Origin: Actinomycetota bacterium
GTDB taxonomy: Bacteria; Actinomycetota; Humimicrobiia; Humimicrobiales; Humimicrobiaceae
Length of the DNA stretch: 5,122 nucleotides
Assembly: GCA_023475715.1 (NCBI GenBank)
Contig: JAMCVO010000309.1
Span: 4,182 to 9,303, forward strand
Reading direction: 5' to 3'
In this document: piece after piece, positions 1 through 5,100 of the stretch
Numbering within the stretch: position 1 is the stretch's first letter
Layout of the letters: each line of letters starts with the position of its first letter
Notes under the pieces: generated by a model
Seen by the model: the letters and a program-made list of their open reading frames with translations, nothing else
Database searches by the model: none
Told to the model about the DNA's origin: nothing
Program-made: the position numbers and the translations under genes

Positions 1-710
1 TCTAAAAAATATGGACCTTTTCCTGAGCGTGCATAATCAATTGCTTTTTTTGTTTCTTCATAAACCCCAATTACATTATTGCCGTCTATGGTAACAGCAG
101 GAATATTATAAGCAGACATTCGTTTTGATAAACTATTTACGTTCACTGCATCTTTAATATTTATTGATATACCATAAAAGTTATTTTCGCATACATATAT
201 TACAGGCAGATTCCAAATGCTGGCCATATTTACAGATTCATGAAAAGAGCCCTCGTTAGTGGCAGTATCTCCAAAAAAACATACAGCAATTTGCTTTGAC
301 TCTCTCATTTTTATTGAAAGCCCTGCCCCTGTGGCAATTGGTATCCCTCCGGCAACTATTCCATTTGCACCAAGATTATAAGTCTTCATATCGGCAATAT
401 GCATGGAACCGCCTTTGCCTTTGCAGCACCCGTTCGTTTTTCCGAATAACTCTGCCATCATTTCATTAACATTTGCACCTTTGGCAATACAATGACCATG
501 ACCCCTATGGGTACTTGTGATATAGTCATTAGTTTTTAATGCGGTACAAACCCCGGTTGCTATGGCTTCTTCTCCAATATATAAATGTGCCGTACCTTTA
601 ATTTCTGCCTGCTCCAATAGTTTTTTAACTGCATACTCAAATTGTCTTATAAGAAGCATTTTTGTGTAAAACTCAAGTTTTAATACATTATCTGGCTTCA
701 AAATCTCCAC
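1..710 (-). CDS. Thiamine-diphosphate-dependent dehydrogenase E1 component, alpha subunit (pyruvate/acetoin dehydrogenase type), 3' end missing
   Basis: This is the alpha subunit of a two-subunit E1 that decarboxylates a 2-oxo acid or cleaves an acyloin such as acetoin, passing the acyl group to a lipoyl E2. About 236 N-terminal residues are present of a family length near 320-330; the rest lies beyond the left edge, where E1 beta and E2 genes would be expected. Visible family motifs are MLLIRQFE near the N-terminus, [30 protein letters not shown], and the cofactor region [15 protein letters not shown] ... VCENN. The usual GDG of the thiamine-diphosphate motif reads GDT here. I chose the GTG at 710 (protein starting MEILKPDN) because it gives the usual length ahead of LLIRQFE and has GGA 5 bases upstream. 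TTG at 701 and ATG at 659 are alternatives. The start overlaps the end of the RuBisCO-like gene by 23 bases, so the two are probably co-transcribed and translationally coupled. Substrate (acetoin, pyruvate, branched 2-oxo acid or another acyloin) cannot be told from this part. Confidence 0.9.
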
Positions 711-1869
711 CTTTATCCGTTGAAAATTCTTTGTAAACGCTCTTCATTGCCTTTACACCTTCAGATATTCCACCAGGATATTTAGTAATTCCTGTGCCGG
801 CAAGTACAATGATATCTGTACCAAATTCTTTTAAATTTTTTAATAAATTACCAGGATTAAGCCCGCCTGATAAAGCCGGTACCATGTCCTTCATGCCCGT
901 CATATTCATTTTCATGACATTTATGAGTGATTTTATCTCAAGAATATTTCCGCCTATCAAATATCCTCCTAAAATATTTGACCTGAAGTAATCTCCACCC
1001 ATTAGTCTTGCAAGTTTTGCTATTACTTCAGGACTTACTCCCTGTCCTTCGGCTCTGCCCAGTGCTTCTTTCCCTCCACAATGTGCGTAAATGGGCACAT
1101 CGTAACCCTGGCTACGTAATATTTTCAAACTGCTAAAACTTGAAGCGAATATGTTAACCATTAAGGCATTTGCTCCGTTTTTTAAAGCTCTTTCTGCAAA
1201 ATTTATGATATTTTCAGGTCCCGTGGTGATATGTGCCGCATACAATACTTTTTTCCCGGTTTTATATTCTGCTTTTTTAAGAGCTTCTGATACTGCTTTT
1301 ACCCTTTTTCCCAAGGGACAGTATTCCGCATTAAGCATCTTTTCATCATCTTTTATAAACTGTAATCCGCCTGACGCGGATTCGTAGCAGATATCAGCAA
1401 CTTCCTCTGCGGTCAGACCTGAGGTAGGCTTTATTATGGTGCCAATTACAGGTTCATTTTCAGGAATTTTTAAATACTCTTTTGTTCTTTTTATTCCCCA
1501 TCCCGGACCTGGGAAAAATTTATAAAGATTATCCGGCAGTTCAAAATCAACAAGTCTTGATTTGTCATAATCTATAAGCGCATGAGTGGGCCCTCCAATC
1601 ATTGCTAACCATATTGAGGAAAAAGCACTTTCCTGCATATTAAAATTTTTGGTGGGGTATAATAAGGTGATATATCCCTTGCCCTTTTCTATTTCTTCTA
1701 CTTTCTCAACCTCACCCTTACATTCTTTATAAAGTTCGGAAGGGAGAGAACCATCACCTTTCCAGCAGCTAGTTGTTTCAATTTCAACTAAAAATTCTGC
1801 AACATCAGTTAAAATTTTTTTAGTTTCAATATAATACTTTGCTTTTAAATAACTTTTTTCTGAGCCCAC
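688..1869 (-). CDS. RuBisCO-like protein (form IV type large-subunit homologue)
   Basis: This 393-residue protein has the RuBisCO large-subunit fold in full: N-terminal domain (about 1-125), then FPGPGWGI and the barrel from [11 protein letters not shown] (143-153). The first catalytic lysine (K147, equivalent to K175) and the magnesium-site motif FIKDDE (171-176; K201, D203, E204 equivalents) are kept, as are H263 (H294), SGG at 334-336 and the phosphate-binding AGTG near 357-360. Aligned by eye, K177 is T149, R295 is C264, H298 is K267, H327 is R296 and loop-6 K334 is Y303. It therefore should not fix CO2. Characterised relatives use the same carbamate-metal site for enolisation, isomerisation or decarboxylation of phosphorylated keto sugars (5-methylthioribulose-1-phosphate and diketo-methylthiopentane-phosphate enzymes, and 3-oxo-isoapionate-4-phosphate enzymes). 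The substrate here is unknown. The GTG start at 1869 is supported by AAGAGG five bases upstream. Its partners are the overlapping E1 alpha gene downstream and the divergent DeoR repressor. Confidence 0.93.
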
Positions 1870-2066: not shown

Positions 2067-2831
2067 ATGGTTACAAAAGAAAGAATTAAAAGAATAGTTG
2101 AGATATTAAAAGAGAATGAAATTATTTCTGTAAAAGAGCTGAGTTTATCGCTTAATGTTTCTACTATGACCATAAACAGGGATCTTAAATTTTTGGAAGG
2201 TAATAATTTTTTATCAAGATTTCATGGTGGTGCAGAGCTTAAAAAAAACAATATTGAAGAAATTCTATTCAATGAAAGAATGAATAGCCATTTGGATGAA
2301 AAGAAAAAAATTGCAATTAAAGCTGCCACTTTTATCCAGAATAACGACTCGATTATCTTGGATGGTTCAACAACCTCGATTATATTATCAAAGGAACTGT
2401 CAAAAAAAAATCTCTCAAACCTGACTGTAATTACAAACTCACATTATATAATTGATGAATTAAAAACAATGAAAGACATTTGTCTGATAAGCACGGGAGG
2501 AGAATACTTAAATAAATTCGGTTCTCTTATTGGAAATTATGCACTTATGATTTTAAGTAAAATAAGAGCAAATAAAATTTTCTTCTCTGTTGGTGGTGTC
2601 TCTGTTGAGGAAGGCTTAACAGATGCAAACCTTGCAGAAATAAAAATAAAAAATCGGATGTTCGAAATTGTCAAGGAAAAAAACCTTTTAGTGGCAAGCC
2701 ATAAATTCAATAAGGTTTTAACGCACCAGGTGGCCCCATTAGATATTGTAGACAGAATAATTACTGAAAGTATAGACAAAAACTTACAAAATAAATTGGA
2801 GGCACTTAAGATATCTGTTGAAATTGCCTGA
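2067..2831 (+). CDS. DeoR-family transcriptional regulator
   Basis: This 254-residue protein has the usual length and two-domain layout of DeoR-type sugar-catabolism repressors. The N-terminal winged helix-turn-helix is seen at about 19-42 (ISVKELSLSLNVSTMTINRD, then LKFLE), followed by the FHGGAEL linker typical of the family. The DeoR C-terminal effector domain carries the phosphosugar-binding pattern DGSTTS (99-104), TNS (123-125), TGGEYL (143-148), FSVGGVS (173-179), GLTDANLAE (183-191) and ASHKF (210-214, where many members have ADHSKF). The family usually represses a neighbouring operon and is released by a phosphorylated sugar intermediate. It is divergent from the RuBisCO-like operon and convergent with the Gfo/Idh gene, so it probably controls the former and perhaps both clusters. 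The start is the first ATG after an in-frame stop at 2058-2060; no clear ribosome binding site precedes it. Confidence 0.93.
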   Translation: MVTKERIKRIVEILKENEIISVKELSLSLNVSTMTINRDLKFLEGNNFLSRFHGGAELKKNNIEEILFNERMNSHLDEKKKIAIKAATFIQNNDSIILDGSTTSIILSKELSKKNLSNLTVITNSHYIIDELKTMKDICLISTGGEYLNKFGSLIGNYALMILSKIRANKIFFSVGGVSVEEGLTDANLAEIKIKNRMFEIVKEKNLLVASHKFNKVLTHQVAPLDIVDRIITESIDKNLQNKLEALKISVEIA

Positions 2832-2834
2832 AAA

Positions 2835-3839
2835 TTATTTATCATTTCTAATTACTTCTAAAACTTCAACAACTTTCATGGCCTCTGCTATGTCAGGGTC
2901 TACGGATTTATCATTGATAATTGCATCAAGAAATTTAAAATCTTCATCTCTAAACATATCATTACGTTTGGTATTATGTTCAATATTGTTCCAACAATTT
3001 TTTTCCTTTTCAAAAATTGAAATAGTATATTTATCCCAGGACCCGAACTCAATAATAATTGTTCCATCTGTGCCCATTAGCTCAAGATATCTTCTTCTTG
3101 GAATTTGAAAAAAATCCAGATGGATGCTGGCAATACATTTATCGGCAAAACCAATGTTTATTTCTGCAACATCAGGTGCCTCAATACCAATATCGCTATA
3201 ATTACCATAAATTGCTTTTATTTTTTCTATAGGTTTATTTGCATACCATATTGCAAGATCAATATCATGTATCAATTCAAAAACACCGGAATATTTTAAT
3301 AAATATAGGGTTTTATAGTCTGGACGGATCATAGGCAGGTTTTCACCCATTAATGCCCTGATGGAAACAAGCCTTCCTATTTTTCCGGAATCTAACATTT
3401 TCTTAACATTCAGCAACCCTCCATGGAAACGAAAACAATGTCCCACCATTACTTTGACTTTTGCTTCTCTTGAAATATTGATTAATTCATCTATTCCTTC
3501 TATCGAGTCTGAAATAGGTTTTTCTGAAAAAACATGACATCCGTTTTGGACAGCCTTCCTGATCATTTCTAAATGCAGTTTTGTGGGAGTCAAAATAAAT
3601 ACTGCATCAGGTTTCTCCTTTAAACCTTCTTCAAATGTATTGCAAGTCTTTATATCTGGAAATTCAACTAATAATGATTCCATTTTTTTAAAATCATTAT
3701 CATAAATATGTATATCTTTTATGCCCAGAGACCTTAATACTTCTGTATGTCTTCTTCCAATTGAACCACAGCCTACTATAAATACGCTTAAATCCTTTAA
3801 TATTTTTTGTGCAATTATTGGATCCTTTTTATTTACCAT
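2835..3839 (-). CDS. Gfo/Idh/MocA-family NAD(P)-dependent oxidoreductase
   Basis: This 334-residue protein has the family's usual length and two domains. The N-terminal Rossmann fold (about 17-135) carries the dinucleotide loop VGCGSIGRRH (22-31) and the SEKPIS segment with the conserved lysine K107. The C-terminal alpha/beta substrate domain has SGVFELIHDIDLA (184-196), with E188 and H191 in the place of the catalytic residues of the subgroup whose motif reads LELSHELD. Members oxidise or reduce hydroxyl groups on sugars, inositols, amino sugars and sugar acids; the substrate cannot be assigned. The ATG lies inside the end of the short-chain dehydrogenase gene (7-base overlap), with GGAGGG eight bases upstream, indicating translational coupling. 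The stop is only three bases from the stop of the convergent DeoR gene. Confidence 0.92.
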   Translation of the reverse strand: MVNKKDPIIAQKILKDLSVFIVGCGSIGRRHTEVLRSLGIKDIHIYDNDFKKMESLLVEFPDIKTCNTFEEGLKEKPDAVFILTPTKLHLEMIRKAVQNGCHVFSEKPISDSIEGIDELINISREAKVKVMVGHCFRFHGGLLNVKKMLDSGKIGRLVSIRALMGENLPMIRPDYKTLYLLKYSGVFELIHDIDLAIWYANKPIEKIKAIYGNYSDIGIEAPDVAEINIGFADKCIASIHLDFFQIPRRRYLELMGTDGTIIIEFGSWDKYTISIFEKEKNCWNNIEHNTKRNDMFRDEDFKFLDAIINDKSVDPDIAEAMKVVEVLEVIRNDK

Positions 3840-4636
3840 ACTGTCAACCCTCCATCCACGACTAAATTGTGACCGGTGACAAATGAGGATGCTTCGGAAG
3901 CAAGAAAAACTGCAGCTCCCTTTATCTCTTTGCCATCTATTCCCATTCTACCCATAGGAATAGTTTTACTATATTCTTCAACAAATTTTGGGTGTTGATT
4001 TCTCCAAAAACCTGCGGGGCTAATACAGTTTACCCTGATATTGTATGGAGCCAGGTATACTGCCATATCTTTAGTCATACTTATAACGCCACCTTTTGCG
4101 GCATGATAATCAAGCGTTGCGCCACCCATATCAGTTCCTTCATATACTCTTCTGTCTTTTCCAATTATCCCTGCAGTAGAACCAAGATTAATAATATTGC
4201 CTGACTTATTGGGCTTCATATACATACTTACAACGTATTTTGAACATAAAAACACCCCTGTAAGATTAATATCAATTACCTCTTGCCAGAGTTTTAATGG
4301 CCTCTTTTCAAATGGTGCATTATCTGGGGTACTGGTTACATTTCCGGCATTATTAATTAATATGTCAATGCGGTTAAGCTCAGAAAGAACATTTTCTATC
4401 ACACTTTTAATCTGTTCTTCATTTCGAACATCAAGTTCAAAAGCTAAAGCTTTTCTCCCTGTTTGCCTGTTAATTTCTTTTGCTGAATTTGACCCTTTTA
4501 ATAATTGTCTGCTGGTAATCGCTATGTCTGAACCTGCTTCAGCTAATGCCAATGCCATATCAAATCCTAAGCCCCTGGCACCTCCAGTAATAAATGCAAC
4601 TTTGCCATCTAATTTAAAAAGTTCCATGACATTCAT
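3833..4636 (-). CDS. Short-chain dehydrogenase/reductase (classical SDR family)
   Basis: This 267-residue protein is a classical SDR acting on a hydroxyl or keto group with NAD(P). Visible motifs in order are TGGARGLG (17-24, dinucleotide loop), LDV (68-70), NNAG (95-98), N124, catalytic S153 (LGSTAG), Y177 and K181 (DYHAAKGG), SPAGF (206-210) and the C-terminal GHNLVVDGGLTVW. R43 at the end of the second strand (ITSR) hints at NADP use, which is inference. S153 and Y177 are 24 residues apart instead of about 13, with an insert containing RRVYEGTDMGG. Related SDRs with a YEGT insert are known to me, so this is a subfamily trait rather than damage. ATG 4636 is preferred because AGGAAAGGAA ends four bases upstream; ATG 4627 is possible. 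It probably sits in one operon with the URO-D-like gene upstream (41-base gap) and the overlapping Gfo/Idh gene downstream. Confidence 0.93.
   Translation of the reverse strand: MNVMELFKLDGKVAFITGGARGLGFDMALALAEAGSDIAITSRQLLKGSNSAKEINRQTGRKALAFELDVRNEEQIKSVIENVLSELNRIDILINNAGNVTSTPDNAPFEKRPLKLWQEVIDINLTGVFLCSKYVVSMYMKPNKSGNIINLGSTAGIIGKDRRVYEGTDMGGATLDYHAAKGGVISMTKDMAVYLAPYNIRVNCISPAGFWRNQHPKFVEEYSKTIPMGRMGIDGKEIKGAAVFLASEASSFVTGHNLVVDGGLTVW
3848..3853 (-). promoter_or_regulatory. Internal ribosome binding site for the Gfo/Idh/MocA gene
   Basis: GGAGGG on the minus strand lies within the last codons of the short-chain dehydrogenase gene, eight bases before the overlapping ATG. It supports the 3839 start and coupled translation. 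Confidence 0.7.
4604..4625 (-). repeat. Source copy of the 22-base inverted repeat (start of the short-chain dehydrogenase gene)
   Basis: This stretch encodes ELFKLDG at the start of the short-chain dehydrogenase. Its exact reverse complement appears at 5099-5120. The copy here sits in an intact gene, so it is taken as the genuine locus. Confidence 0.9.
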
Positions 4637-4677: not shown

Positions 4678-5100
4678 TTAAATTTCTATATCCTCTGACT
4701 TAGTTATACTTATGGGATAACTTCCATATTCAAACAATGTATTTAACATCATCACATAGTTTTCCATTTTTACGTGAGATTCAATTGAATTGCTTGAGCC
4801 CAATGCATACCCTCCTCCGGGACCAAGTGTCTTTATTCTTTTTAATGTCAATTTTTTTATATCTTCAGGTGTCCCTCTAATCAATAAATCAACATCGATG
4901 TTCCCGATAATTGCGATTTTATTCCCCCATTTTTTCTTTACTTCGTCTATATCCATGGCTTTTGGTTCAAAAGGATTTAATGCATCATATCCACAATAAT
5001 CGATAAGATCATCCATGATATCATACAATTTTCCATCTGAATGCCTTAAAAAAAGTTTTTTACGGCTGTGTGCCATTTCTCCGATTTTTTTTTCAAAAGG
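4678..5100 (-). CDS. Uroporphyrinogen-decarboxylase-like (URO-D superfamily) protein, C-terminal part only
   Basis: About 140 C-terminal residues match the URO-D/MtaA-type barrel, whose members are normally 330-400 residues. Seen are MAHS, then FLRHSDGKLYDIMDDLI, DALNPFEP, MDIDEVKKKWG, IAIIGNIDVDLL, GTPEDIKK and GPGGGYALGSSNSI. Members include uroporphyrinogen decarboxylase and cobalamin-dependent methyltransferases. In MtaA-like enzymes zinc is held by an HxC motif and a later Cys; here these read HSD and GSS, so a zinc methyltransferase is less likely and the function is open. The frame stays open upstream of the ATG at 5076 (codons for PFEKKIGE), with family-like sequence, until it enters the inverted 22-base copy at 5099, where all three frames hit stops. 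The ATG at 5076 is a poor start: GGAG is only two bases away. I therefore read this as a gene cut by a chimeric end, or less likely a true remnant. It probably leads the SDR-Gfo/Idh operon. Confidence 0.8.
   Translation of the reverse strand, partial: PFEKKIGEMAHSRKKLFLRHSDGKLYDIMDDLIDYCGYDALNPFEPKAMDIDEVKKKWGNKIAIIGNIDVDLLIRGTPEDIKKLTLKRIKTLGPGGGYALGSSNSIESHVKMENYVMMLNTLFEYGSYPISITKSEDIEI

Follow-up and report, generated by a model that had tools for sequence, protein, structure and literature searches.

What reaction is catalyzed by a RuBisCO relative whose active site has been kept in part and replaced in part? This question is raised by a stretch of 5,122 nucleotides from an Actinomycetota bacterium (contig JAMCVO010000309.1, positions 4,182 to 9,303; hereafter the window), which encodes a RuBisCO-like protein (RLP). 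We propose, with a probability of roughly 0.45, that this protein acts in sugar catabolism as an enolizing isomerase or epimerase, on a ketose phosphate that carries a second anionic group. The proposal would be supported by the residues of the clade to which the protein belongs, which keeps K147, the KDDE sequence, H263, SGG, and G360 yet loses the equivalents of N123, K177, R295, and K334 of RuBisCO. It also draws support from the gene for a DeoR-type regulator that adjoins the RLP gene. Regulators of this type usually sense sugar phosphates.

The residues of the window RLP were mapped on the numbering of form I RuBisCO. The gene and the segments that line its active site are as follows.

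688..1869, minus strand: RuBisCO-like protein, 393 amino acids, GTG start, stop codon counted in
1423..1431, minus strand: K147-P148-T149 motif, equivalent to K175-P-K177 of RuBisCO
1342..1353, minus strand: K173-D174-D175-E176, equivalent to K201, D203, and E204
1069..1083, minus strand: H263-C264-G265-G266-K267, equivalent to H294, R295, and H298
961..984, minus strand: R296 to Y303, the loop-6 segment, equivalent to H327 and K334
862..870, minus strand: S334-G335-G336 loop, equivalent to S379-G381
790..801, minus strand: A357-G358-T359-G360 loop, equivalent to G403-G404

The equivalents of K175, K201, D203, E204, H294, S379, G381, and G404 are retained. We take K173 and the KDDE sequence to be the carbamate lysine and the Mg2+ ligands, and the SGG (S334-G336) and AGTG (A357-G360) loops are presumed to bind phosphate, all of these roles being carried over from RuBisCO. 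The residues by which forms I–III are recognized (N123, K177, R295, H298, H327, and K334) are replaced by P94, T149, C264, K267, R296, and Y303, respectively, and G403 is replaced by T359; the spacing of seven between positions 327 and 334 is preserved. With the fold of the RuBisCO large chain, a match to PF00016, and an incomplete set of carboxylation residues, the protein belongs to form IV in the broad sense. The best Foldseek and sequence matches of the protein are the archaeal form III RuBisCOs 2cwx and 2d69, and the first rank in VIA-align, tied with form III, is held by 3nwr, which belongs in the tree to the type of OiaX (3-oxo-isoapionate-4-phosphate decarboxylase). The form III match, which is the top sequence match in the PDB, would favor a carboxylating RuBisCO, but all six of the residues listed above are replaced. 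A carboxylase was rejected on these active-site residues, and its probability is close to nil.

A careful tree of 63 rows was calculated with LG+C20 and given a midpoint root for drawing only. The window RLP was recovered in a superclade of 28 rows (support of 100/100, stem of 0.81) and, inside it, in a clade of 20 rows (100/98; hereafter the window clade). The superclade rows outside of the window clade are not monophyletic: L079, L080, and L082 diverge first, whereas the L010 group is united with the window clade at a support of 93/85. No reference fell inside the superclade among forms I–III, four chains of the type of MtnW (2,3-diketo-5-methylthiopentyl-1-phosphate enolase), two cupin-linked chains, IV-Photo, and the OiaX/DUF1537 type, and the window RLP lies outside both the OiaX/DUF1537 clade and the IV-Photo clade. 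Under the midpoint root, the superclade adjoins the group of RuBisCO, Photo, and OiaX (98/96). In approximately unbiased (AU) tests, for which the groups were defined after inspection of the tree, a joint clade of the superclade with MtnW was rejected (p-AU = 9.35e-05) and one with the OiaX/DUF1537 type was marginally rejected (p-AU = 0.043).

All six NCBIfam matches of the window RLP are far under the respective cut-offs: 189.5 bits against 497.45 for form III, 176.9 against 438 for PRK04208, 123.9 against 489 for PRK13475, 171.9 against 409 and 129.7 against 513.6 for the MtnW models NF007095 and TIGR03332, and 160 against 700 for the OiaX model NF042437. A preliminary description of this DNA had listed the residues given above, all of which are present in the protein, and had concluded that they match no activity with a name; a clear position inside a characterized clade, together with the diagnostic residues of that clade, was set beforehand as the outcome that would refute it. 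The conclusion is upheld by these scores and by a placement in a superclade that holds none of the characterized references used, and the diagnostic residues of MtnW, the RLP+cupin type, IV-Photo, OiaX, and RuBisCO are missing from the window RLP. The clade could be the same as one of the form IV clades that have a name and are uncharacterized (IV-GOS, IV-AMC, and IV-Aful).

Two activities of methionine salvage come into consideration for an RLP of this kind. The window RLP is similar to MtnW in size and fold and in having an active site without R295 and K334, and the RLP+cupin type (DeepYkr, 5-methylthioribulose-1-phosphate 1,3-isomerase), to which we infer that rows L061 and 3qfw belong, is likewise an RLP without the loop-6 lysine. 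However, a lysine at the N123 position, presumably the general base, is found only in MtnW, with G, A, or P in the window clade; positions 298 and 327 are Ser and Leu in MtnW versus K267 and R296 in the clade; and the two fall in separate clades. The RLP+cupin type has KDDH rather than KDDE, an Arg in loop 6, and a cupin gene beside L061, and it is very distant in the tree. No cupin was found among the scanned open reading frames (ORFs) of the window, and a small cupin of another kind is encoded after the RLP at L002. Both identities were rejected on the scores, the residues, the tree, and the AU test, and no other salvage gene is present among the scanned neighbors. A role in methionine salvage, already called unlikely in the preliminary description, is thus very improbable. 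As an observation apart, in P0310 (534 amino acids) domains of acireductone dioxygenase and cupin (PF03079 and PF07883) accompany one that is RuBisCO-like, and the protein is perhaps a methionine-salvage fusion.

The residue signature was followed across the relatives obtained from three protein searches (120 of 304, 120 of 604, and all 102 matches), and the counts below cover the matches listed. A FastTree set of 381 rows was assembled from 18 references, the loci, and 315 of the 323 proteins found; the remaining 8 are shorter than 355 amino acids and were left out. An earlier alignment had omitted found proteins of 370 amino acids or fewer and locus ORFs of 350 or fewer. The window clade comprises 135 rows in this tree (support of 0.882) and the superclade at least 292 rows (0.941). 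The KPT motif is present in all 135 rows of the window clade, and KPC in 156 of the 157 other superclade rows. The metal motif of the window clade is FIKDDE (134 rows) or FVKDDE (1 row), followed by HCGGK (123) or HCGGR (12); position 296 is R in 131 rows and K in 4; position 303, in the loop-6 column, is Y in 132, N in 2, and H in 1; position 334 is S throughout; and the N123 position is occupied by G (84), A (43), or P (8). A sequencing artifact was rejected, the pattern being common to 135 rows. Among the other 157 rows, HSGGR is found in 118, with variants in the rest, position 296 is Q in 145 and R in 12, and position 334 is A in 145 and S in 12. The states at 296 and 334 are paired in 292 of 292 superclade rows, as R/K with S in 147 and as Q with A in 145, with no mixing.

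The loop-6 position is K in 5/5 RuBisCOs and 24/24 rows of the OiaX/DUF1537 type, and S or R in 7/7 rows of the MtnW, cupin-linked, and Photo types. By this feature alone, the window clade would group with the RLPs for which no handling of CO2 or of a carboxylate is known. An insert of 3–4 residues in loop 6 is seen in superclade RLPs outside of the window clade (L010, L015, L020, L084, P0121, P0122, P0133, P0145, and P0158). A separate subgroup, 13 of the 157 rows outside of the window clade, has VSDDE, with Ser for the carbamate lysine, and ESGGR, with Glu for H294. Its members (L080:2986-4185, L081:7397-8590, L083:6775-7977, and P0241-P0250) are, as judged from these motifs, RuBisCO relatives with an altered canonical metal site.

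From this active site we infer the following mechanism, in which carbamylation, metal, substrate, the two anion sites, and reaction type are all conditional. Mg2+ would be coordinated by carbamylated K173 together with D175 and E176, and the enediolate would be generated there in the manner of RuBisCO. One phosphate would be bound by the SGG and AGTG loops, and K267, R296, and S334 would bind the second anionic group, either a phosphate or a carboxylate, at the far end. Given the loss of N123 and of the loop-6 lysine, the reaction would be ended by reprotonation rather than by attack on CO2. In RuBisCO, R295 and H327 hold the far phosphate of ribulose bisphosphate. No cationic residue is found at position 295, 298, or 327 of MtnW, and a second anionic group is suggested for the window clade because it has K267 and R296 where MtnW, the substrate of which has a single phosphate, has no cation. 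The general base of the window clade would have to be other than the residue at the N123 position, because this is G, A, or P in the clade and Lys in MtnW; it may most simply be the K173 carbamate.

The gene neighborhoods of 14 window-clade loci were compared within 4 kb of the RLP by tblastn; several loci are cut close to the gene, and the scans covered some of the neighbors. A sugar kinase or phosphofructokinase, a class I aldolase, a relative of ribulose-phosphate epimerase or mannitol-1-phosphate dehydrogenase, or a xylose-isomerase-like protein is encoded near the RLP at 11 of the 14 loci. By family, the neighbors are Gfo/Idh (6/14), xylose-isomerase-like (4/14), PfkB (3/14), relatives of mannitol-1-phosphate dehydrogenase (3/14), relatives of ribulose-phosphate 3-epimerase, alpha/beta hydrolase, E1 alpha, and uroporphyrinogen decarboxylase (URO-D) (2/14 each), and FGGY, LacD, and pyrophosphate (PPi)-dependent phosphofructokinase (1/14 each). 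The three loci without a sugar-type gene are the window, L004, and L007, where the contig is cut. L004 has alcohol dehydrogenase, Gfo/Idh, E1 alpha, E1 beta, and E2 genes.

The strongest single cases are L005 and the pair L006 and L009. At L005, PfkB and FGGY genes are followed by that of a protein of the tagatose-1,6-bisphosphate-aldolase subfamily (289.9 bits, cut-off of 184) directly before the RLP, with sugar-type ABC transporter genes on both flanks. Five genes follow one another in a common order at L006 (Acidobacteriota) and L009 (Pirellulales), which belong to different phyla: Gfo/Idh, xylose-isomerase-like, alpha/beta hydrolase, epimerase, RLP. A protein of the PPi-dependent phosphofructokinase subfamily (382.7 bits, cut-off of 273) is encoded ahead of the RLP at L016, and the gene that follows the RLP at L008, missed by the tblastn query, encodes a class I aldolase of the DhnA type. 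The suggestion made from the window alone, that a sugar-phosphate reaction is involved, is strengthened by these sugar-phosphate enzymes beside clade members of other phyla; the particular reaction stays at the level of our proposal.

Sugar-catabolic clusters are equally the setting of OiaX, and the main competing explanation is that the window RLP decarboxylates a 3-oxo sugar-acid phosphate or cleaves it in a retro-Claisen reaction, as OiaX/OiaT do in the breakdown of D-apionate. OiaX and the RLPs linked to DUF1537 share with the window RLP the RuBisCO fold, the KDDE sequence, and the equivalents of K175 and H294; the superclade adjoins the RuBisCO/Photo/OiaX lineage under the midpoint root, their joint clade is only marginally rejected, and 3nwr ranks first in VIA-align, albeit tied with form III. 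The genes for Gfo/Idh, xylose-isomerase-like protein, and alpha/beta hydrolase at L006 and L009 could constitute an oxidative sugar-acid route. However, OiaX is about 30% identical to the window RLP, which scores far below the cut-off of the OiaX model, and OiaX keeps R295 and the loop-6 K334, where the window clade has C264 and Y303. A DUF1537 kinase is encoded near the RLP in 19 of 27 OiaX-type loci, whereas with a query from an OiaX locus none was found in the 14 window-clade loci or the 29 superclade loci (within 4 kb, some flanks being short) or in the 5.1 kb of the window. We therefore regard an OiaX-like reaction as unlikely.

Several points weigh against the isomerase or epimerase proposed above. 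No kinase or aldolase is present among the window neighbors (E1 alpha, DeoR, SDR, Gfo/Idh, and URO-D; 5.1 kb), and the other superclade loci have few sugar neighbors (FGGY at 1/15, GatZ-like at 1/15) and gave no consistent pathway. The neighbors vary by locus and several seem unrelated, such as IlvD above cut-off at L002, polysaccharide-export genes at L001, a molybdopterin protein at L003, and, at L007, an ABC exporter as well as a pterin dehydratase; L006 and L009 already have an epimerase-like gene. The neighbor contrasts are biased toward the source group of each query, because the queries were taken from the same loci. The confidence of the structure model drops around K267 and Y303. The traits at 296 and 334 each change just twice among the 28 superclade rows of the 63-row tree, and because the changes are so few, their coupling is suggestive and no more. 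A lysine is found in the loop-6 column of 56 of the 157 other superclade rows, beside the insert of 3–4 residues, and two alignments differ there; the loop-6 argument is for this reason confined to the window clade.

Genes of the URO-D family are repeatedly found close to superclade RLPs, at L003:6082-7122, L018:3823-4989, and window positions 4678-5076. A conserved neighbor of about 450 amino acids (L003:4724-6073 and L013:7369-8760) is 59% identical across two phyla; neither copy is matched by Pfam, nor is the L013 copy by NCBIfam at 1e-10. Inositol-monophosphatase-family and alpha/beta hydrolase genes lie downstream at L014.

In our contig scan, in which six peptide patterns of the window were used and the search was not exhaustive, the superclade is confined to MAG (metagenome-assembled genome) or uncultured records; 21 superclade loci (L001-L020 and L043) were obtained among 43 relatives. 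Most of the listed members are nameless in their sources, and the names given include Anaerolineae, Chloroflexi, Armatimonadetes, Bacteroidales, Oscillospiraceae, Saccharofermentanales, Actinobacteria, and, for one member, Beggiatoa. The RLP was found at E ≤ 1e-60 in 1/400, 8/291, 1/301, 2/297, and 1/198 genomes of the whole-genome samples and in 1/14, 2/3, 1/17, and 3/3 of the smaller ones, each count including the center genome, which was already known as a carrier. The first five of these counts suggest that the clade is rare in whole-genome samples. Among viral contigs, 24 pattern matches yielded no relatives; phage records, queried with the L020 RLP only, gave no match; and the plasmid matches, the best listed of which had an identity of 32.6%, served as outgroup references only. 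The genome labeled Pelolinea (G003), home of L005, encodes four PF00016 proteins of three RLP groups (L045, L049, L051, and L052).

These names bear on an oxygenase of a keto-pentitol bisphosphate. The RLP of the D-hamamelose pathway is reported to convert 3-keto-D-ribitol-1,5-bisphosphate to 3-phosphoglycerate and phosphoglycolate (cited in PMC10173188, PMC10176493, and PMC8914248), an activity that would go well with a doubly phosphorylated substrate. PfkB and HAD phosphatase genes follow the RLP at L087, and Beggiatoa is not a strict anaerobe. The Anaerolineae, Bacteroidales, Oscillospiraceae, and Saccharofermentanales, with which other listed members are labeled, are however mostly known as anaerobes. 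A search aimed at a hamamelose-type RLP returned further DUF1537-type records, and none of the 25 rows listed bore the name of a hamamelose gene. Such an oxygenase is improbable.

The characterized RLPs are no more than a handful, and these act on substrates similar to ribulose bisphosphate via an enediolate in proton abstraction, isomerization, decarboxylation, or oxygenation (PMC10176493). Form IV is divided into seven listed subgroups plus the hamamelose oxygenase, with names that include IV-GOS, IV-AMC, and IV-Aful (PMC10173188); GOS groups are reported to cluster with none of the forms known, and their poorly conserved positions include N123, K177, H327, and G404 (PMC1821046); the DeepYkr isomerase is described (PMC5893883), and apiose RLPs are mentioned (PMC6302742); a rhizobial RLP mutant had lower bicarbonate uptake (PMC8914248); and another study filtered out the approximately 5,000 RLPs that it had found (PMC12663927). 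The closest prior hint in these papers is that an actinobacterial RLP near genes with a DeoR sensor and an epimerase domain may be a sugar epimerase (PMC7325909). That RLP, a form IV protein from 'Candidatus Hakubanella thermoalkaliphilus', is likened to that of the window by description only, through the nearby DeoR-sensor gene. The relatives reported for it from BLAST (Candidate Phyla Radiation, Spirochaetes, Planctomycetes, and Moorella; PMC7325909) may point to a different clade. The literature surveyed, in the portions available and with the motif not searched as text, contained no name or assigned function for the clade. An RLP of unassigned function is a known kind of protein, and a clade with a fixed signature and a sugar-phosphate setting is not described in the portions of the literature surveyed.

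Each characterized RLP informs how RuBisCO could arise from an enolizing sugar-phosphate enzyme. The superclade is large (at least 292 rows), is fixed in a different active-site pattern, and adjoins the lineage that holds RuBisCO. More tentatively than the proposal for the window RLP itself, it may represent an uncharted arm of the superfamily, in which the active site, now with T149, C264, K267, R296, and Y303, was refitted for the isomerization or epimerization of a sugar bisphosphate and in which the enzyme supplies class I aldolases of uncultured bacteria. This reaction is unreported for RuBisCO relatives in the literature surveyed, and the arm would stand beside the CO2-fixing RuBisCO/Photo/OiaX lineage under the root used for drawing. 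If true, a sugar-phosphate isomerase at this position would be in line with descent from an isomerase and offer a directly testable case, and it would help to rename members that are now labeled 'ribulose-bisphosphate carboxylase' or 'diketo-methylthiopentyl-phosphate enolase'.

The other genes of the window are the following.

3..710, minus strand: E1 component alpha subunit (PF00676), truncated by the window end
2067..2831, plus strand: DeoR-family regulator with HTH_DeoR and DeoR C-terminal sensor domains, divergent from the RLP
2835..3839, minus strand: Gfo/Idh/MocA family oxidoreductase
3833..4636, minus strand: SDR family oxidoreductase, top NCBIfam subfamily gluconate 5-dehydrogenase (237.8 bits, cut-off of 279)
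4678..5076, minus strand: URO-D family protein, C-terminal part

The E1 alpha ORF as listed overlaps the 3' end of the RLP gene by 23 nucleotides, and the two are therefore probably in the same operon. The E1 alpha proteins of the window and of L004 are 48% identical. The model match of the URO-D ORF is limited to positions 244-343 of 346, though the sequence runs to the window end, and a run of nine T residues is found at 5085-5093, just ahead of the start of this ORF. Together, the T run and the partial match make a frameshift in the gene or in the assembly possible.
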